Assembly: GCA_902363145.1 (NCBI GenBank)
Contig: CABIZB010000011.1
Coordinates: forward strand, 1 to 19,152
Source: Oscillospiraceae bacterium
GTDB lineage: Bacteria > Bacillota > Clostridia > Oscillospirales > Ruminococcaceae
Direction of reading: 5' to 3'
Length of the DNA: 19,152 nucleotides
Positions 9,721-18,791 of this stretch are shown piece after piece. Made by a program: the position numbers and the translations under genes. Below the pieces are notes generated by a model, which was not told where the DNA came from, did not search any database, and worked only from the letters and a program-made list of their open reading frames with translations. Numbering within the stretch: position 1 is the first letter of the stretch; every line of letters begins with the position of its first letter.

Positions 9721-10074
9721 ATGGACTTTAAATTCATAGACCGCATTTGCGTTATCGAGGTAGAGGACAAAAAGTATCCTGTTGTCTTTCAGAAGCCGCT
9801 CGTTGACAGACTGGGAAGCATAAAAGACACCTTTCTGAGCCTGAAAAACGACGGAGGGGCTGATGAGGAAAAGGTGATCTCCGCTTTTGACAATGCCATT
9901 GACAGCATTCTCGGAGACGGTTCCGCCTCAAAGATATTTGCTGACAGGCTGCCGAACATCGTTGAAAGATATGCTGTACTCAAGTACATTTACGATGAGA
10001 TCACTGCGTTTATGCAGAGGATAGCAGGTGAGAAAAATGTTGTTTTGCCCGAAGCCAAAGGTCATAAGCATTGA
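9721..10074 (+). CDS. Tail assembly chaperone (upstream partner, G-like)
   Basis: 117 residues with ribosome site GGAGGTAAT. It is largely helical and acidic, with an IEVEDKKYPVVF start and a LPNIVERYAVLKYIYDEITAFM end. Position between major tail and tape measure marks it as the first tail chaperone, which coats the tape measure during tail assembly. It overlaps the next gene by up to 47 bases in a frame displaced by +1 (or -2), the arrangement in which many phages make a frameshifted chaperone fusion. Confidence 0.78.
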   Translation: MDFKFIDRICVIEVEDKKYPVVFQKPLVDRLGSIKDTFLSLKNDGGADEEKVISAFDNAIDSILGDGSASKIFADRLPNIVERYAVLKYIYDEITAFMQRIAGEKNVVLPEAKGHKH

Positions 10075-10660
10075 CAGTATCCCAGTTCCCGTTGACCCCG
10101 ATTTCCGCATAATGTGCGATTACTCGGAGGCGATGTCGGACAAGGACGCTGACAAGGCCTGTGCGCTTGCGGGGCGTTTTTACTTTGCGGGGCTGCCTGA
10201 GGGCGTTTCGGAGAAGGCTGCGGCGGACGCTATGACGGACTTCTACATTTCGGGTCTTGCGCCCGGAGCGAGGAACAAGGGGACATCTGCCATGGGGTCA
10301 CATGAGCCGTCGTTTGACTTCTCGGAGGACGAGGCATATTTCTATGCGGATTTTCTCGGGCACTACGGCATTGACCTGAACACGGCAAAGCTTCACTGGT
10401 TCGATTTCTGTGCATTGTTTCGGGGTCTGCCCGATGAATGCAGGCTGAAAAGGATAATCGGTATAAGGGCCGAAAGCCTTTCGGAAATAAAGTCCTCTGC
10501 GGAAAGGTCGAGGGTGGCAAGGCTCAAACGTATTTTTGCGCTGAAAAAGAAGCAGGCGCCAAGATACAAGACGGCTGCCGAGAGGGACAGGGCTGTGCTG
10601 GACGAAATCCAGCGCATTCACAGAGAGGCTATGGAAAGAATGAGAGGTGAGGGCAGGTGA
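10037..10660 (+). CDS. Gp15-like tail assembly protein (downstream chaperone partner)
   Basis: About 207 residues. ATG 10037 is preferred because AGGTGAG at 10026-10032 is well spaced; GTG 10028 in the same frame is an alternative. The start (PKVISIDSIPVPVDPDFRIM) and a W-containing core (LHWFDFCALFRGLPDECRLKRIIGIRA) are recognisable as the bacteriophage Gp15 family that sits before the tape measure in Firmicutes phages. The C-terminal ~60 residues are highly basic and helical. It overlaps the upstream chaperone and ends by overlapping the tape-measure start (GTGA). Confidence 0.8.
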   Translation: MLFCPKPKVISIDSIPVPVDPDFRIMCDYSEAMSDKDADKACALAGRFYFAGLPEGVSEKAAADAMTDFYISGLAPGARNKGTSAMGSHEPSFDFSEDEAYFYADFLGHYGIDLNTAKLHWFDFCALFRGLPDECRLKRIIGIRAESLSEIKSSAERSRVARLKRIFALKKKQAPRYKTAAERDRAVLDEIQRIHREAMERMRGEGR

Positions 10661-13600
10661 CGGTTGGTGAGATAGTTTATCGTATTACAGGCGATGATTC
10701 AGGGCTTCGAGCCGCTCTGAACAACACCAAAAGCACTGCAAATCAGACTGCTCAGTCTGTTAGCGGTATTGCGGAAGCAGTAAACAGCACTGCTGAAAAC
10801 GCATCTGCGACGCAAGCTGTGATGAACGGAATAGCAGCATCAGCCGAAACCGCCGCAGCTGCTGCAAGTACTGCAGCTGCGGCGGTAGAGACTACGGCAC
10901 AGTCAGCGGCTATTTCACAGGAAGCATATGAAGCCGCTGTAAGCTCTCAGCAGCGTCTTTCGCAGCAGATACAGGCTACTGAAAACAAGCTTGCGGAATT
11001 AAAAGCTATGGAGGCTGATATGTCAGCTGCACGGCAGAGCGGCGATATTTCGGCGGCAGCATTTCAAAGGTATCAGCATGAGGTACAGCAAACCGCAGAC
11101 AAGCTTGTCACACTTAATATTCAGAACGCTGCGGCTACTGAGCGTATTGCGCAGATGAACGCAAGCCTTGCGGCAACCGAAGCGGTATCAAACAATGCGG
11201 CAGAAGCCGTAAGCCGAATAGGAGAAAGTGCAGAAACAACAACGGAAGCCGCAAGAGATGTAACTCGTGCCACTCAGGAAGTGGGCAATGAGGCAGAATC
11301 GGCAGCAAACAAAAGCACAAAAGCCTATGAAAAAATCGGTTCGGCAGCTCAGAAGGCTCTTGGAATGATCACAAAAGCTGCTATCACTGCTTCGGCTGCT
11401 GCATCTGCTGCGGTAGGCGCCCTGGCAAAAGAAGCTATCGCAAGTTTCGGCGATTATGAGCAGCTTGCCGGCGGTGCGCAGCTGATGTTCGGCGAGGCGT
11501 ATGATTACATTGCCGAAAAGGCTAAGACTGCTTTTAAGGACGTACAGATGTCCCAGAACGATTACCTTGAACAGGTAAACGGCTTTGCCATTGGCTTAAA
11601 AAACGCTATGGGCGGCGATGAGATAGGTGCGGCAAAGCTTGCCGACAGGATAGTTGCTGCCGAGGCGGACATTGTGGCTGCTACGGGCAACACTGCGGAG
11701 AATGTTCAGAACGCTTTCAACGGCATTATGAAAAGCAACTATACCATGCTCGACAATTTGCAGATAGGTATCACCCCCACGAAAGAGGGCTTTGCAGAGC
11801 TTATCGACAAGGTAAATGCGTACAAAAAGGCCCACGGCGAGGCAACGGAATACACCATTGACAACCTTGCTGACTGCCAGAACGCTCTTGTTGACTACAT
11901 TGAGATGCAAGGGCTTTCGGGATATGCTCAGGCTGAGGGTGCCGATACGCTGCAGGGCTCTATGGCAAGCATGACAGCTGCATGGCAGAATATGCTAACA
12001 GGAATGGCGGACCCCACGCAGGATTTTGACAGGCTCGTATCTGACCTTATTGACAGCGTTCTGAACGTATCCGACAATCTTATGCCCCGCATTATGGCGG
12101 TTCTGCCGCAGATGGCTACGGGCATTGCCGAACTTGCGAAGGGCATTCTTCCCTTGATACCGCAGACACTTGAAGATATGCTCCCCGATGTTATAAGCGG
12201 CGCAAACAGTCTTATTGCGGCTCTGCTTGACACGCTTTCTTCCATTGCTGACACGGCTATACCTATTGTAACAGATAATGCGGACGAGATAATCGACACG
12301 CTGCTGTCGGGGCTTATATCCGCATTGCCCAAGGTCGCAGGCTCGGCGGCTGACCTTTGCACGGCGCTTATCACGGCTATACATTCCAACGCCGATATTA
12401 TAACGCAGGGTGCTATGGACATTATAACGGCTCTTGCAAAGGGCATTTCCGACAATCTGGACACGCTTATACCCGCTGTTGTAAATGCGGTGCTGACCAT
12501 CACGGAAACGCTGATAAATAACACTGACAAGCTTATTTCGGCTGCCGAGGACATAATCATAGGTCTTGCTGACGGTCTGATAAATTCCCTGCCGATACTA
12601 CTGGCAAAGGCTCCGCAGATACTCATGGAGCTGAACACTGCTCTTGTCAGTGCCATTCCCGACATCATTGAGTTTGCGCTTGACCTGTGTGACCATATCG
12701 CAGACAATATCATAAACTACGACTGGGAAAGCGTAGGAGCCGATATGTATAAAAATATGCAGGAGGCTCTCAGCAATGCGCTCAGCGGTGACAGCAATGC
12801 AGTGGAAAAGGCTGCGCAGGCACAGGCGGAGCGCATAAAACGCTACGACGGTCTTACGCAGGAACAACTTGACAAAATGATAGCGGACAACACCCGAAAG
12901 CTGGGCGAATGGAACGATGCGTTCCTTACAGCTCAGGAAAACGGTTCGTTTGATTATGATCTGCTGCCAAAGTGGATGCAGACAGAAATGGATATGTCGG
13001 GCGAGACGAGCGTTGAAAAGTATCTGAGCAGCAGCCTCACAGCGGTAGATGCGACCATTGATGACCTGACCGAAGCAAGGAAAAAAGCCGTTTCCGAAAT
13101 TGAAAAGACAAACGGTGATATTGCGGGCGCCCTTGACGGCACTGCCGATGTGGAAGGCAGCGGAGCTGACAGTATGCCCGATGCAGGTGTTGACGGCGTG
13201 GTAGATAAGTCAGAAATGCTTGATGCGGCGCTCAAGGAGCTGGAGGACAAATATGCTGTCCACAAGGTCACGGAAGAAGAATACTGGGCGGGCAGAAAGG
13301 CGTTGCTCGAACAGTACCGCAATGAGGAAGACGCTGAGTGGTGGAAGCTTTATGACAAGGTAACGGAGCATTATGACAAGCTTGCGGACACCGAGGCAAA
13401 GGCAGCTGAAAAGGCTGCAAAAGAAGCGGAGCAGGCTAAAAAGGACGCTGAAAACGCCCTGAAAACTTCCGTCGAGGACAAGTTCCGTGAGCTGGAGACC
13501 GAACAGCTGGAAAAGGGCTATGACGACAGCTGGCTGCTGGAGCAGGAGAGGGCATTTATTGAGACCCTTGACCACAATTCTGAGGTGTACAAGGACTATA

Positions 13601-14418
13601 ACCTTAAAATGCTGAAAGAGCAGAAAAGCACCGACGATAAGGCAGCGAAAGAGGCTGAAACCGCTGCCAAAAAGCAGCGGGACACTCTTGAAAAAGCCTA
13701 TGACAGCGTTGTAAAATCCCGTGACAGTCTGGCAAGCAGTCTGAAAGGCAGCAGTGGCGATATCTTCAACAGCTCTGAGGAAACGGACAAGCGGACGGGG
13801 GCTAAAACCAAGTCAAACAAGATAGACCTTAGCGGATTTGAGAAAAAGCTTGCTGCCAAGAAAAAGCTGACATCAAAAATCGCCGAGCTGTATGAAAAGA
13901 ATGTGCCTGACAGCCTTATAACCGAACTGCTCAAACAAGACCCGGAAGCGGCGCTGGACTATGCAACGCAGCTGCTGAAGGACCCCAAGAAGCTTTCGAA
14001 AATCAAGTCTTTGTACAAGGACGATGAGGGCGTAAGCAACATCATCGCCAACATGGTGACGGAAAATTCGGAGGAGTTTGAGAAGTTAGGTACTGACGCA
14101 GGCACGCTGTTTGGTGACAGCTTTATGGAAGCGTTCCGCCGGAACTGGGAGCAGTCCATGAAGGACGTTTTTGACGGCAATTACGTTGACGCTGCGGCGG
14201 CGAATGTATCTGCTGCCAACTCTTCGGCGAGCATTTCCGCCAACACATCGGCGGCAAACACAACGGCGGCGGACAGTCAGGACACATCTGCGTCGGTCAA
14301 GCGTACATCTGCCTCGTCGGGCAACACCGTTTACAAGGTGGTTGATCTGGACGGCAAGTATGTGGCTAAGGTTGTTGCGCAGGAAAACAAGCGGGCTAAA
14401 ACTGCCAGCGGAGGTTAA
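10657..14418 (+). CDS. Tape measure protein
   Basis: 1253 residues from GTG 10657, which overlaps the previous stop; AGAGGTGAGGG lies just before it. It sets tail length and is ejected ahead of the DNA. Residues ~20-240 are Ala/Thr/Ser/Gln-rich coiled coil. Residues ~255-430 hold the conserved tape-measure domain (SFGDYEQLAGGAQLMFGEAY and onward to NLQIGITPTKEGF). Residues ~465-700 are a long hydrophobic block of repeated amphipathic helices separated by prolines, probably membrane-interacting. Residues ~860-950 and 1000-1060 are charged coiled coils. The end (~1180-1215) is Ser/Ala/Thr low complexity. No peptidase or lysozyme motif was recognised in it. Confidence 0.93.
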   Translation: MTVGEIVYRITGDDSGLRAALNNTKSTANQTAQSVSGIAEAVNSTAENASATQAVMNGIAASAETAAAAASTAAAAVETTAQSAAISQEAYEAAVSSQQRLSQQIQATENKLAELKAMEADMSAARQSGDISAAAFQRYQHEVQQTADKLVTLNIQNAAATERIAQMNASLAATEAVSNNAAEAVSRIGESAETTTEAARDVTRATQEVGNEAESAANKSTKAYEKIGSAAQKALGMITKAAITASAAASAAVGALAKEAIASFGDYEQLAGGAQLMFGEAYDYIAEKAKTAFKDVQMSQNDYLEQVNGFAIGLKNAMGGDEIGAAKLADRIVAAEADIVAATGNTAENVQNAFNGIMKSNYTMLDNLQIGITPTKEGFAELIDKVNAYKKAHGEATEYTIDNLADCQNALVDYIEMQGLSGYAQAEGADTLQGSMASMTAAWQNMLTGMADPTQDFDRLVSDLIDSVLNVSDNLMPRIMAVLPQMATGIAELAKGILPLIPQTLEDMLPDVISGANSLIAALLDTLSSIADTAIPIVTDNADEIIDTLLSGLISALPKVAGSAADLCTALITAIHSNADIITQGAMDIITALAKGISDNLDTLIPAVVNAVLTITETLINNTDKLISAAEDIIIGLADGLINSLPILLAKAPQILMELNTALVSAIPDIIEFALDLCDHIADNIINYDWESVGADMYKNMQEALSNALSGDSNAVEKAAQAQAERIKRYDGLTQEQLDKMIADNTRKLGEWNDAFLTAQENGSFDYDLLPKWMQTEMDMSGETSVEKYLSSSLTAVDATIDDLTEARKKAVSEIEKTNGDIAGALDGTADVEGSGADSMPDAGVDGVVDKSEMLDAALKELEDKYAVHKVTEEEYWAGRKALLEQYRNEEDAEWWKLYDKVTEHYDKLADTEAKAAEKAAKEAEQAKKDAENALKTSVEDKFRELETEQLEKGYDDSWLLEQERAFIETLDHNSEVYKDYNLKMLKEQKSTDDKAAKEAETAAKKQRDTLEKAYDSVVKSRDSLASSLKGSSGDIFNSSEETDKRTGAKTKSNKIDLSGFEKKLAAKKKLTSKIAELYEKNVPDSLITELLKQDPEAALDYATQLLKDPKKLSKIKSLYKDDEGVSNIIANMVTENSEEFEKLGTDAGTLFGDSFMEAFRRNWEQSMKDVFDGNYVDAAAANVSAANSSASISANTSAANTTAADSQDTSASVKRTSASSGNTVYKVVDLDGKYVAKVVAQENKRAKTASGG

Positions 14419-14421
14419 AGC

Positions 14422-14796
14422 ATGAATGATACGATATTAAAAATCGGCAATGTGGATATGTCCGAACACGTTATATGCGAGGCTGTGGATATATCAACAG
14501 CGCCTGTGTATTCGGACAGCTTCACTGCTGTAAACGGCAAGGAAAAGAAAAAGTGTCTGGGCGTGAGCGTCAGTCTGTCGGCTGATTTTCAGGTGCTGTC
14601 GGACACGGTAGCAACTGCCCTTGTGACCGCCTGCAATGCGGACGAGGTGACCGTAAAATACAAATGCCCTACGGTACAGACCAATGTGTTTGACCGCCCG
14701 GCTATCCGCTGTGTGCCTGTATTTAACGACGGCACGGTGGACTATTACAACATATCCGTATCTATGACCTGCCCTCTCACGGGCTCAGGCCTTTAG
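14422..14796 (+). CDS. Small distal tail protein (DUF6711-like)
   Basis: 124 residues from ATG 14422 with GGAGG just after the tape-measure end. Beta-rich sequence (ILKIGNVDMSEHVICEAVDIS, LGVSVSLSADFQVL, VKYKCP, and a closing YYNISVSMTCPL) fits a small distal-tail-type protein, the usual gene after the tape measure in these phages. It ends in CTT TAG, and the next coding frame opens by a +1 step at precisely this point with no usual start codon, so the protein may also be made as the N-terminus of a longer fusion with the gene that follows. Confidence 0.7.
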   Translation: MNDTILKIGNVDMSEHVICEAVDISTAPVYSDSFTAVNGKEKKKCLGVSVSLSADFQVLSDTVATALVTACNADEVTVKYKCPTVQTNVFDRPAIRCVPVFNDGTVDYYNISVSMTCPLTGSGL

Positions 14797-14797
14797 C
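14788..14797 (+). promoter_or_regulatory. Candidate +1 programmed frameshift site (CTT TAG C)
   Basis: The last sense codon CTT (14791-14793) is followed by TAG and then C. Slipping from CTT to the overlapping TTT and skipping one base gives AGC CTG CCG TAC, which is exactly the reading frame of the downstream tail protein. The layout matches the CTT TGA C site of bacterial release factor 2. A canonical upstream Shine-Dalgarno stimulator is not obvious. Confidence 0.5.
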
Positions 14798-15859
14798 CTG
14801 CCGTACAAGATAACCTATCAGGGTACGGAATACGGTGCGGACGTACTGACCAACATCAGGCTGAGGCGGTCGCTGGAGGGCAAGGGATTTGACGGTGTGG
14901 CCACAACGGAATTTTCCTGTGATGTATGGTCGGCTGTGCCGTTTATAGAGGGCAGCAAGGTAACATTTAACGGCTATTTGCTGCCTGATTTTTACATTGC
15001 CCAGCAGTCCTATGCGGGCGGTGTGGCAAGCATCACGGCGTATGATCTGTGTAAAAATCTGGATATTCCATTTGATTACAGCGGATATGATCAGTTTGAG
15101 TACACCTATGACGATGACGGCAACAAGGTTTTCGATGAAAGCAAGGCAAAGCGGTATCCCACGTCTCAGATAGTGGGAGCGATCGCCGATCAGTGCGGTT
15201 TCACCGAGGGCGGATATTCGGGGCGCATGGCACAGCTGTGCTATCAGGATTTCGCAGGCAAGACGTGCAGGGTCATACTCAGCGACCTGTCACACAATGA
15301 TGTGGGATACTGGCATGACAGCGGCGGTGTGCTGGCGTTTGTGCCTTTTTCTGCGCCCTCTTCGGGGCTGGATATGCCTGCGGAGAACGACAGGACGGAG
15401 GTCATCAGGCGGGGTACGAAGCACATCACAAGCATATATGCCACTGATGAGGCATATGGCAACGAGTATGCCTCGGGCTCCGACTGGCGGCACACGGAGC
15501 GCATTTCGGGACGGTATCTGACTGAGGCGGCTGTACAGCAGATGGTATCGCAGATAGTCGGCAGCGGCGGCGAGTACGCATATCACGGCTGGGAATGTTC
15601 GCAGATGATCACTGATTATTTGTACAACATTGGTGATTTCATCGCATACGGCGGCGACAAGCTTCCTGTGCTGAGTGTTGATTTTGATTTCACGGGACTG
15701 GGAATCGTGGCTGATGTTTCTGCGCCTGAGGCGGATTGCAGTTTCAGTGAGTATCATGATTTGTACAGCCGCAAGCTGGAGGGCAAGCTGGAGGCAAACA
15801 AGTCCTATGGCTGCTTTTTTGCAGGCGACAAGGGATTTGGACTGAGGATAGAAATGTGA
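14795..15859 (+). CDS. Tail hub/baseplate-like protein; start unresolved, probably a +1 frameshift extension of the upstream gene
   Basis: The convincing coding sequence begins at about 14798 (LPYKITYQGTEYGADVLTN, then RLRRSLEGKGFDGVATTEFS), but between the frame's upstream stop (14765) and GTG 14897 there is no ATG, GTG or TTG. Starting at GTG 14897 would cut into a conserved strand block and has no ribosome site. The stretch given here is therefore the frame after the CTT TAG C site; the fusion product would be about 478 residues. Otherwise initiation at CTG 14798 just after the TAG is possible. The product (about 354 residues) has the strand/helix pattern of hub proteins: SKVTFNGYLLPDFYIAQQ, ASITAYDLCKNLDIPFDY, SQIVGAIADQCGF, and a C-terminal part with LEGKLEANKSYGCFF. 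It would lie at the tail tip. Confidence 0.7.
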   Translation, partial: SLPYKITYQGTEYGADVLTNIRLRRSLEGKGFDGVATTEFSCDVWSAVPFIEGSKVTFNGYLLPDFYIAQQSYAGGVASITAYDLCKNLDIPFDYSGYDQFEYTYDDDGNKVFDESKAKRYPTSQIVGAIADQCGFTEGGYSGRMAQLCYQDFAGKTCRVILSDLSHNDVGYWHDSGGVLAFVPFSAPSSGLDMPAENDRTEVIRRGTKHITSIYATDEAYGNEYASGSDWRHTERISGRYLTEAAVQQMVSQIVGSGGEYAYHGWECSQMITDYLYNIGDFIAYGGDKLPVLSVDFDFTGLGIVADVSAPEADCSFSEYHDLYSRKLEGKLEANKSYGCFFAGDKGFGLRIEM

Positions 15860-16982: not shown

Positions 16983-18791
16983 ATGTCTATCAGTACAAGA
17001 GAAGCAACCGTTACGCTTAACGGCGTGACAACCGTAACATTTGACCGCAGATATCCATATTTTGCGGTAAGAAACGATAGCAGCGCACCTGTGTACATTT
17101 CCACAGTAAATGCGGATTGCACAGCAGGCGCCGACGGTGTAGTGACTGTCGCTAAGGACAGCAGTTTTGTTATTGCCAACTGCGGCGATAAATTCAATGG
17201 CACTGTGCTGTACCTGAATGGAAATGGCACTGTCACAGTCGTTGGTCAGTACAGCGACAGCAACCGTTTTAAGGTGGCACAGAAAGGGGGTGGTGAAACT
17301 GTTGATATAAACCCCACGTCACTAGGATATGCCTCAGGAGCAAAGATGTTCTATGACGGTGTTTATAATTTCCCGCCCAAACACGCCACGAACGGCAACA
17401 CATGGGTTGATATGGTAAAGAGTCAGACTATGAGCCGATACACAGACGGCAGCGGTAATGGTCTGATAGCATCTAACCATTACATCAAACAGACAGGTAT
17501 TGCAACAGCGATGAAGATACCAGACATGATTGATTATGACCGTTTTACTATAGAACTGTTCGTTGAAATAACGGGCGGAACTACTGGCGAAAATGATATG
17601 ATTAGTTGTTACGATAAGGCTGGTTTTGGCATTTACACCGAAAATGGTCAAATGATTGCGTCCATACGCTCTGAATCATTGGCCAGTTACCTGAATATCG
17701 CTACAGCGTTTACCCAGAACACGCCGTATGGTTTGGCTATAACCTATGACGGACAGGCGTTTAATTTCTATGTGAACGGCGCACTGGTCGGAACAAGAAC
17801 GTTATCCGACTACAAAAAATCAACCAAAAATACGTATCTGGGCTGTTTGGGCGCAGACGATACCAATTATGCGGTAGGCGCATATAATTTCTATCGTCTT
17901 ACGGCGTACAGCAGGGCGTTGACTGCGGCAGAAATTGCCCAGAACTACGATAAAGACGTTAAGCGCTATGTTGACGGCGAGCCTGATTTTCCTGCTGAGG
18001 ACGATACTGAATGGATTACCAGCATTGCAGAAAATCATAATAATATCTTTCGTGGCGATGATTTATTCGCCAAGGGATATGATATCAATGATATCTGCGC
18101 TATGATTGCTGACGGGTCGTTTTCTGACATTTACATCGGTGACTATTTCACGTTGTCAGGAAGTATTGAAAATGTTCCCTGTTTTGTGGAACAGACCGGT
18201 GATGATGGTACAAAAACGCTGGTGGAATCGACCCAGACGGTAACCTACAATACGAAATTCCGTGTCGCAGGTTTAGACACCTATTTAAACACTGGCGATA
18301 CGGCGTTTACAGCACATCACGCTGTTATTGTGCCTGATGGAGTTATCGGGCGCAACTATATGAATGGCACTAATACTACCAGTGACGGGTATATTGGCAG
18401 TTTCATGTTTGCATCGGTATTACCTGTGTATAATACGCATTTTTCAGCGAAACTGAACAATCACCTGTTGTCACATCGTGAAATTTTGAGTAATGGCGTG
18501 ATTGGAAATCAGGCAAATAGTTGGGCGTGGACAGACGTGAAAATAAATTTAATGTCTGAACCGGAAATATACGGGCTATCAATACGGGGCGATGGGTTTG
18601 ATGTAGGCGTGAATTATCGACAATTCCCATTATTCCGTATATCACCGACATATATGGTTAATTTCAGTTGGTGTTGGCTGCGAGCTGTCTATACATCAAG
18701 TAGTTTCGCATATATGGGCGGCTCAGGCGGTGCAGGTGCGGGTGCCGCCGCTACGTTATTTGGCGTCCGCCCCTGTTTCTGCATAGGCTGA
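16983..18791 (+). CDS. Host-recognition tail protein: LamG-like domain plus C-type-lectin-like variable tip
   Basis: 602 residues from ATG 16983 with a weak GAGAGTG site. Residues ~1-100 are a beta-rich virion-attachment module. Residues ~115-325 fit a LamG/concanavalin-like lectin (YDRFTIELFVEI, GLAITYDGQAFNFYVNGAL, YNFYRLTAYSRALTAAEIAQNY). Residues ~355-602 are a tropism domain with DGSFSDIYIGDYF, FTAHHAVIVPDGVIG and a closing FSWCWLRAVYTSSS ... FGVRPCFCIG, as in C-type-lectin-fold phage receptors and diversity-generating retroelement targets. The final 45 codons are Gly/Ala-rich with few adenines. The whole gene is more AT-rich than the head genes, so it has probably been acquired or swapped. 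It should decide which host surface structure is bound. Confidence 0.8.
   Translation: MSISTREATVTLNGVTTVTFDRRYPYFAVRNDSSAPVYISTVNADCTAGADGVVTVAKDSSFVIANCGDKFNGTVLYLNGNGTVTVVGQYSDSNRFKVAQKGGGETVDINPTSLGYASGAKMFYDGVYNFPPKHATNGNTWVDMVKSQTMSRYTDGSGNGLIASNHYIKQTGIATAMKIPDMIDYDRFTIELFVEITGGTTGENDMISCYDKAGFGIYTENGQMIASIRSESLASYLNIATAFTQNTPYGLAITYDGQAFNFYVNGALVGTRTLSDYKKSTKNTYLGCLGADDTNYAVGAYNFYRLTAYSRALTAAEIAQNYDKDVKRYVDGEPDFPAEDDTEWITSIAENHNNIFRGDDLFAKGYDINDICAMIADGSFSDIYIGDYFTLSGSIENVPCFVEQTGDDGTKTLVESTQTVTYNTKFRVAGLDTYLNTGDTAFTAHHAVIVPDGVIGRNYMNGTNTTSDGYIGSFMFASVLPVYNTHFSAKLNNHLLSHREILSNGVIGNQANSWAWTDVKINLMSEPEIYGLSIRGDGFDVGVNYRQFPLFRISPTYMVNFSWCWLRAVYTSSSFAYMGGSGGAGAGAAATLFGVRPCFCIG
18660..18788 (+). 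other. Candidate diversity-generating retroelement variable region (VR)
   Basis: The last 43 codons of the tropism gene carry the fixed frame WLR ... F ... GVRP of C-type-lectin VRs. Between them, 18714-18752 reads ATG GGC GGC TCA GGC GGT GCA GGT GCG GGT GCC GCC GCT, nearly free of adenine at codon positions 1 and 2 in an otherwise AT-rich gene. These are the codons expected when AAC/AAT codons of a template repeat are mutated at adenines. No template repeat or reverse transcriptase is in the window. Confidence 0.5.

Follow-up and report, generated by a model that had tools for sequence, protein, structure and literature searches.

The ring gene, the hub frame and the candidate shift site

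The window, meaning the whole stretch of 19,152 nucleotides that was analysed, carries a tape measure protein gene followed on the same strand by a short gene for a putative tail ring protein and by a longer coding frame for a putative tail hub. The features considered here are the following.

10657 to 14418, + strand: tape measure protein gene, an ORF matching PHROG tail length tape measure (best E 6.7e-36)
14422 to 14796, + strand: ring gene, 124 codons, zero-frame product of 124 aa with a predicted tail-tube-like (Dit-like ring) fold
14787 to 14789, + strand: weak Shine-Dalgarno (SD)-like AGG, 1 nt from CTT; the window is grouped with the loci lacking a good SD-like stimulator
14788 to 14797, + strand: putative shift site GGC CTT TAG C; a CTT-stop followed by a +1 hub occurs in 64 loci
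14788 to 14790: E-site codon of the shift site
14791 to 14793: slip codon CTT, which would re-pair on TTT 14792-14794
14794 to 14796: stop codon TAG, ending the GGC CTT TAG of the ring gene (14788-14796)
14797: C following the stop codon
14795 to 15859, + strand: hub domain coding frame that would be entered by the +1 shift, 354 residues plus stop, assigned by frame and structure model; predicted gp27/Mu gp44-type hub fold
14897 to 14899, + strand: GTG, first ordinary start of the hub frame, at which four near-identical database proteins begin (MATTEFSCDVW)

ORF analysis of the window placed the hub frame at +1 relative to the ring gene. This frame is preceded by a TGA at 14765-14767 and is open from 14768 to the stop at 15857-15859; a CTG is present at 14798, and GTG 14897 is its first ATG, GTG or TTG. 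When CTTT is read as a single Leu step, an uninterrupted product of 478 residues (124 + 354) is obtained with exactly one such step. The preliminary description of this DNA had already noted both the lack of an ordinary start between the stop at 14765 and GTG 14897 and the CTT TAG end leading by one +1 slip into a 478-residue product; its coordinates proved correct on re-analysis and its arithmetic was right when recomputed. Stop codons were checked for 20 genes of the window, and TAG was used by the ring gene only, the others ending in TGA (13) or TAA (6). The tape measure gene stops 3 nt before the ring gene, which leaves no space for a second ring gene between them.

Two other regions of the window were noted. 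A tail-chaperone-like pair is found at 9721-10074 and 10028-10660, with an overlap of 47 nt and the second gene at +1; this second gene has possible starts of its own (GTG 10028 and ATG 10037), and its counterpart ORF in one relative (L002) begins with ATG. The protein encoded at 16983-18791 combines a concanavalin-like (Laminin_G_3) domain with a weakly DUF6273-like end and is a candidate receptor-binding protein.

Conservation of the CTT-stop and the +1 offset among relatives

A protein search with the +1-frame product returned 54 homologues. These database hub proteins (P0003-P0056) start at many different places, either at equivalents of GTG 14897 or at out-of-frame starts such as MKDTGTFPF in the stretch shared with the upstream gene, a scatter that probably reflects gene callers having no model of the shift. 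In the first five genome loci fetched, the hub was at +1 in all five, behind CTT TAG C in L001 and CTT TGA C in L002-L005. Wider searches of genomes gave matches in 26 of 396 at the family level, 19 of 20 at the genus level and 12 of 391 at the class level. The site is also present on two IMG/VR contigs, L074 and L075, which belong to two subfamilies. Five different hub queries of phage records all returned one scaffold only, the deposited human faecal phage scaffold MT837472.1 (L071), which has AGT CTT TAG C, and several of the phage relatives come from gut samples. Scans with P0001 (viral contigs and genome contigs) and with A1 (viral contigs) found no relatives, and a plasmid search with P0009 gave no match.

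The fetched loci were then scanned uniformly with ring and hub HMMs and duplicates were removed by site context, leaving 72 ring-hub rows; a few weak genome matches lie outside this count of fetched loci. Also left out were L039 and L065-L068 (weak or false matches), L128 (ring gene not found, with the contig end close by) and L054 (same place as L044). A CTT-stop with the hub at +1 was recovered in 64 distinct loci, that is, the window and 63 others. The sites read CTT TAG C (53), CTT TGA C (9), CTT TGA A (1) and CTT TAA A (1); C thus follows the stop in 62 of the 64, the departures being L091 (TAA A) and L125 (TGA A). Three distant ring-hub pairs (L121, L122 and L130) lack CTT and have GGG TAG C instead, with the stop, the C and the +1 offset unchanged. 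The other rows were three outgroup loci with separate genes (L061, L062 and L064), the separate ring-like gene that accompanies the in-frame fusion of L098 and one locus, L013 (1450-1456, G004:C73), in which CTT TAG C is kept at offset 0. A +1 slip would fail in L013 since its hub is in frame 0; this may be a damaged or mis-assembled copy (local indel or assembly fault) or a stop readthrough variant.

Such a gene end is rare outside this position. None of 203 other same-strand ORFs of 100 aa or more, taken from 47 loci including the window, ends in CTT TAG C or CTT TGA C; two end in CTT and one in TAG C. Comparison of the first 48 sites showed that the C, T, T, T and final C of the motif and a G at -2 were invariant, columns other than this G and the seven bases of the site carrying less than 1 bit. 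The G at -2 is only a strong bias, because it is broken in 5 of the 64 sites of the later-extended set (L084, L087, L117, L125 and L126). Hubs of loci outside the subfamily of the window share 19-32% identity with the window hub. A tree built from 74 hubs requires six changes of the TGA label, at least four of them forced by well supported branches; the stop has therefore switched repeatedly between TAG and TGA while CTT and the +1 offset stayed constant. A stop identity that varies with CTT and the +1 offset held fixed is what selection for slippage predicts. Judged from these sequence comparisons, the conserved loci would make a chance arrangement, an indel or an odd start untenable as readings of the site. 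The conserved site, its offset and the tree together lend strong comparative support to the RF2-like +1 frameshift that had been suggested for the window.

Predicted folds and the start of the hub

The model of the upstream protein has a tail-tube fold of the Dit N-domain or baseplate tube ring type; several tube-fold families tie in Z when it is compared with known folds, and Dit is not singled out. One of 43 ring family members matches DUF6711, weakly. The downstream protein, modelled in its frame from TTT 14792, reached a pLDDT of 91.8 (85 over the first ten residues) and is predicted to adopt the gp27/Mu gp44-type tail hub fold. Residue 1 of the hub falls, in structural matches, on residues 1-6 of several stand-alone hubs, among them T4 gp27 and the hubs of phages Milano and 7-7-1. 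A sequence search against solved structures gave no match below E 0.2, and none of 54 hubs was assigned a Pfam family at E 0.01. Fold prediction thus upholds the earlier guesses of a distal-tail-type domain upstream and a hub downstream, in the form of tail-tube-like and hub folds. Codons located after the site and before any start showed a pN/pS of 0.42 in the +1 frame versus 1.34 and 0.97 in the other frames (89 pairs), a value to be taken as support and not as a test, since the pairs were picked by +1-frame identity, overlap and are non-independent.

These data bear on where the hub could begin by itself. One explanation is that a terminating ribosome re-initiates at a non-ATG codon right after the stop, namely CTG 14798, which lies 1 nt past TAG; L002 has TTG there, and a database protein (P0013, MPYKV) begins at the same point. 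The codon at this place varies, being CCG in L005 and TAT, GAT, AAT, TGG or CGG in others, and positions +7 to +9 carry 0.06-0.23 bits. Re-initiation would moreover leave unexplained why CTT is conserved, why the offset is always +1 and why TAA is nearly absent, and we consider it improbable. We regard a hub beginning at GTG 14897, and so lacking 35 residues, as less probable still, although this codon is preceded by an AAGGGA stretch and the four near-identical database proteins that start there are P0003-P0006. Strands 6-9, 12-14 and 19-27 of the confidently modelled hub precede GTG 14897 (residue 36), so that its first three strands would be deleted, and relatives lack any start codon after the site for 77 (L003), 116 (L017) or 120 (L034) codons. 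GTG 14897 is thus most likely not the real hub start.

An ordinary gene overlap, in which the hub would start within the ring gene, already in the +1 frame, and need no shift, would fit the 34 of 47 loci whose hub frame contains a start codon ahead of the site; it may apply to any single one of these, and certain database proteins do begin there (MKDTGTFPF...). Such a start is impossible in the other 13 loci, the window among them, 10 of which also lack a start within 10 codons after the site, and the CTT-stop would again be unexplained; we give this arrangement very little chance. Frame changes between adjacent genes are often errors, and L013 resembles one. Against an indel, a sequencing error or a decayed gene, the same +1 offset at the stop is found in 67 loci with proteins conserved on either side, coming from many genomes, the two IMG/VR contigs and the deposited phage scaffold. 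As a general explanation this is already refuted, and its probability is negligible. The most coherent reading is that a programmed +1 frameshift of the RF2 type yields a free ring protein plus a ring-hub fusion, the hub having no separate start, and we hold this to be very probable.

Proposed frameshifting, ring stoichiometry and known systems

According to this frameshift model, the ribosome would translate the ring gene up to and including CTT, the last sense codon. Termination would be slow at the TAG C or TGA C that follows, and the Leu tRNA would slip from CUU to UUU, after which the ribosome would read on through the hub domain in the +1 frame; without a slip, the free ring protein would be released. 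One gene pair would therefore give two products in a set ratio, free ring subunits and the ring-hub fusion (478 aa here). The site, the +1 offset, their conservation and the +1-frame constraint are read in the sequence and the folds are predicted; that slippage occurs, and how often, we infer.

Possible stimulators were looked for around the site. In the clearest loci an SD-like GGAGGT lies 3-4 nt before CTT, and it is strong in L014, L024, L026-L028, L030 and L040; the element is weak in the window (AGG) and absent at many sites. Calculated anti-SD pairing of 7-nt windows starting -12 to -8 from CTT reached -5 kcal/mol in 10-16 of 47 loci, versus 0-7 elsewhere from -60 to +30. No downstream RNA stimulator was found in the 47 loci (mean fold z -0.37, one locus below -2). 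Transcriptional slippage was rejected, as there are just three consecutive T at the site.

The hub of distant Clostridia phages (eight loci, L058-L064 and L070) begins at an ordinary start codon of its own, in most cases an ATG preceded by SD-like sequence, and the gene upstream has no CTT-stop. This upstream gene was recognised by the ring HMM in five of the eight (L060, L061, L062, L064 and L070) and its ring likeness was judged by eye in L058, L059 and L063. An ordinary start with no frame offset, which the preliminary description had held would speak against a shift, is thus encountered in distant outgroups only; in the close family, L002 has TTG at the position of CTG 14798 yet retains CTT TGA C and the +1 offset.

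Some relatives do encode one fused ORF, a point that had been singled out for checking. An in-frame ring-hub ORF of about 500 aa was found in one clade (support 100/100), represented in the tree by two loci (L051 and L098) and four database proteins; both loci scored 'far' in the uniform scan, ring and hub being one ORF. The L051 fusion used as query returned 31 proteins including itself, 28 of which match at least 90% of its length. L097, also of the in-frame family, was excluded because it covers just the later part of the fusion, preceded by unrelated sequence. In an outgroup-rooted tree, whose deep branches are long and whose rooting is uncertain, the in-frame clade falls among frameshifting hubs.

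In both readable in-frame loci, a further small ring-like gene separates the tape measure gene from the fusion. In L051 (732-1055), it shows 28% identity by BLASTP to the fused ring domain (E 4e-13), profile comparison with A2 giving a probability of only 47%. The gene of L098 (3989-4321) is 32% identical to the L051 paralogue (E 2e-12), with a weak HMM hit and a poor match to its own fused ring domain (E 0.008). The HMM scan for a second ring gene was insensitive, since it missed the L051 paralogue. In the window and in L001-L005, at most 47 nt separate the ring gene from the long ORF before it, leaving no room for an extra ring-like gene. The presence of a separate ring-like gene beside the in-frame fusion in two of two readable loci suggests that free and hub-fused ring proteins are both needed and that frameshifting is one of two routes to both.

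By analogy with homologues, the ring would be a hexamer and the hub a trimer at the tail tip. The shift may then serve to build a six-domain ring of which part, most simply three domains, carries the three hub copies, and the ring-hub fusion probably exists because six ring domains must carry three hubs. We tentatively propose, at somewhat less than even odds, that about half of the ribosomes slip, giving a six-domain ring of alternating free and hub-fused subunits in which the trimeric hub is covalently fixed in the hexameric ring, and that after in-frame fusion the separate ring-like gene supplies the free subunits. If so, the frameshift would be a stoichiometry device solving the symmetry mismatch of the tail tip. 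The frameshift, in-frame fusion and separate-gene relatives would form a natural system for studying the joining of six-fold rings to three-fold hubs in tails. On the frameshift reading itself, the database hub proteins of this phage group are truncated or mis-started.

Bacterial prfB (CUU UGA C with an SD-like stimulator) shares with the present site the slip codon CUU, a stop followed by C, the +1 direction and, in a subset of loci, the SD-like GGAGGT. The SD-like element of RF2 has a position relative to CUU like the 3-4 nt spacing seen here. The gene pair is a tail ring and hub and not the RF2 gene, the stop is mostly UAG, read by RF1 (TAG in 53 of the 64 CTT sites), and both products are probably structural, unlike in prfB. 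Since RF2 does not recognise UAG, the stop at most of these sites, RF2 feedback cannot be the purpose here. In genomes of the relatives' genus, all five complete prfB genes were single ORFs without such a site, a sixth genome giving a partial prfB gene only. CTTTGAC was seen inside the ORF in four of five of these prfB genes (L111-L115), solely in a stretch reading SPFD. A search for the RF2 pattern in related genomes was uninformative, since its reversed control was nearly as frequent.

The release factor 2 shift site is CUU-stop-C, for which the GeneTack paper lists the consensus YTT_TRA_C (PMC3711429). A review reports that in the most extensive test of CUU slippage, which placed UAG after the slip codon, CUU_U slipped far more efficiently than any other (PMC5009743). 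Every CUU-stop +1 entry of RECODE is prfB according to the PRFect paper (PMC10885494), and no report of ring/Dit-hub frameshifting was found in the titles and abstract openings of open-licence PMC papers. The ring-hub context thus looks new for this type of shift, and a well-studied bacterial +1 site would now be placed in a conserved phage structural gene, mostly with UAG instead of UGA.

Like lambda gpG/gpGT, the pair combines a conserved tail-operon frameshift with short and long products. The lambda proteins are made upstream of the tape measure gene. The site in the window, unlike this chaperone frameshift, lies downstream of that gene. The lambda shift is -1 (-1, -2 or +1 in other phages) and the chaperones are absent from the virion, as stated in PMC5009743. 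Closer in type are SPP1 gp17.1/gp17.1* (CCCUAA) and the tsh genes of Listeria PSA, A118 and A500 (CCC_UGA), in which a +1 slip on the last sense codon at the stop of a phage tail gene gives two products, present at 3:1 in SPP1 tails (PMC6316719, PMC5009743). Those shifts lengthen the major tail protein at CCC, whereas here a whole hub would be added to a tail-tip ring protein at CUU. The SPP1 tail tip likewise combines a ring, the gp19.1 (Dit) hexamer, with a hub, the gp21 (Tal) trimer, encoded by adjacent genes after the tape measure gene; according to PMC6316719, these are two separately started genes, whereas in the window the hub would be a frameshift extension of the ring.
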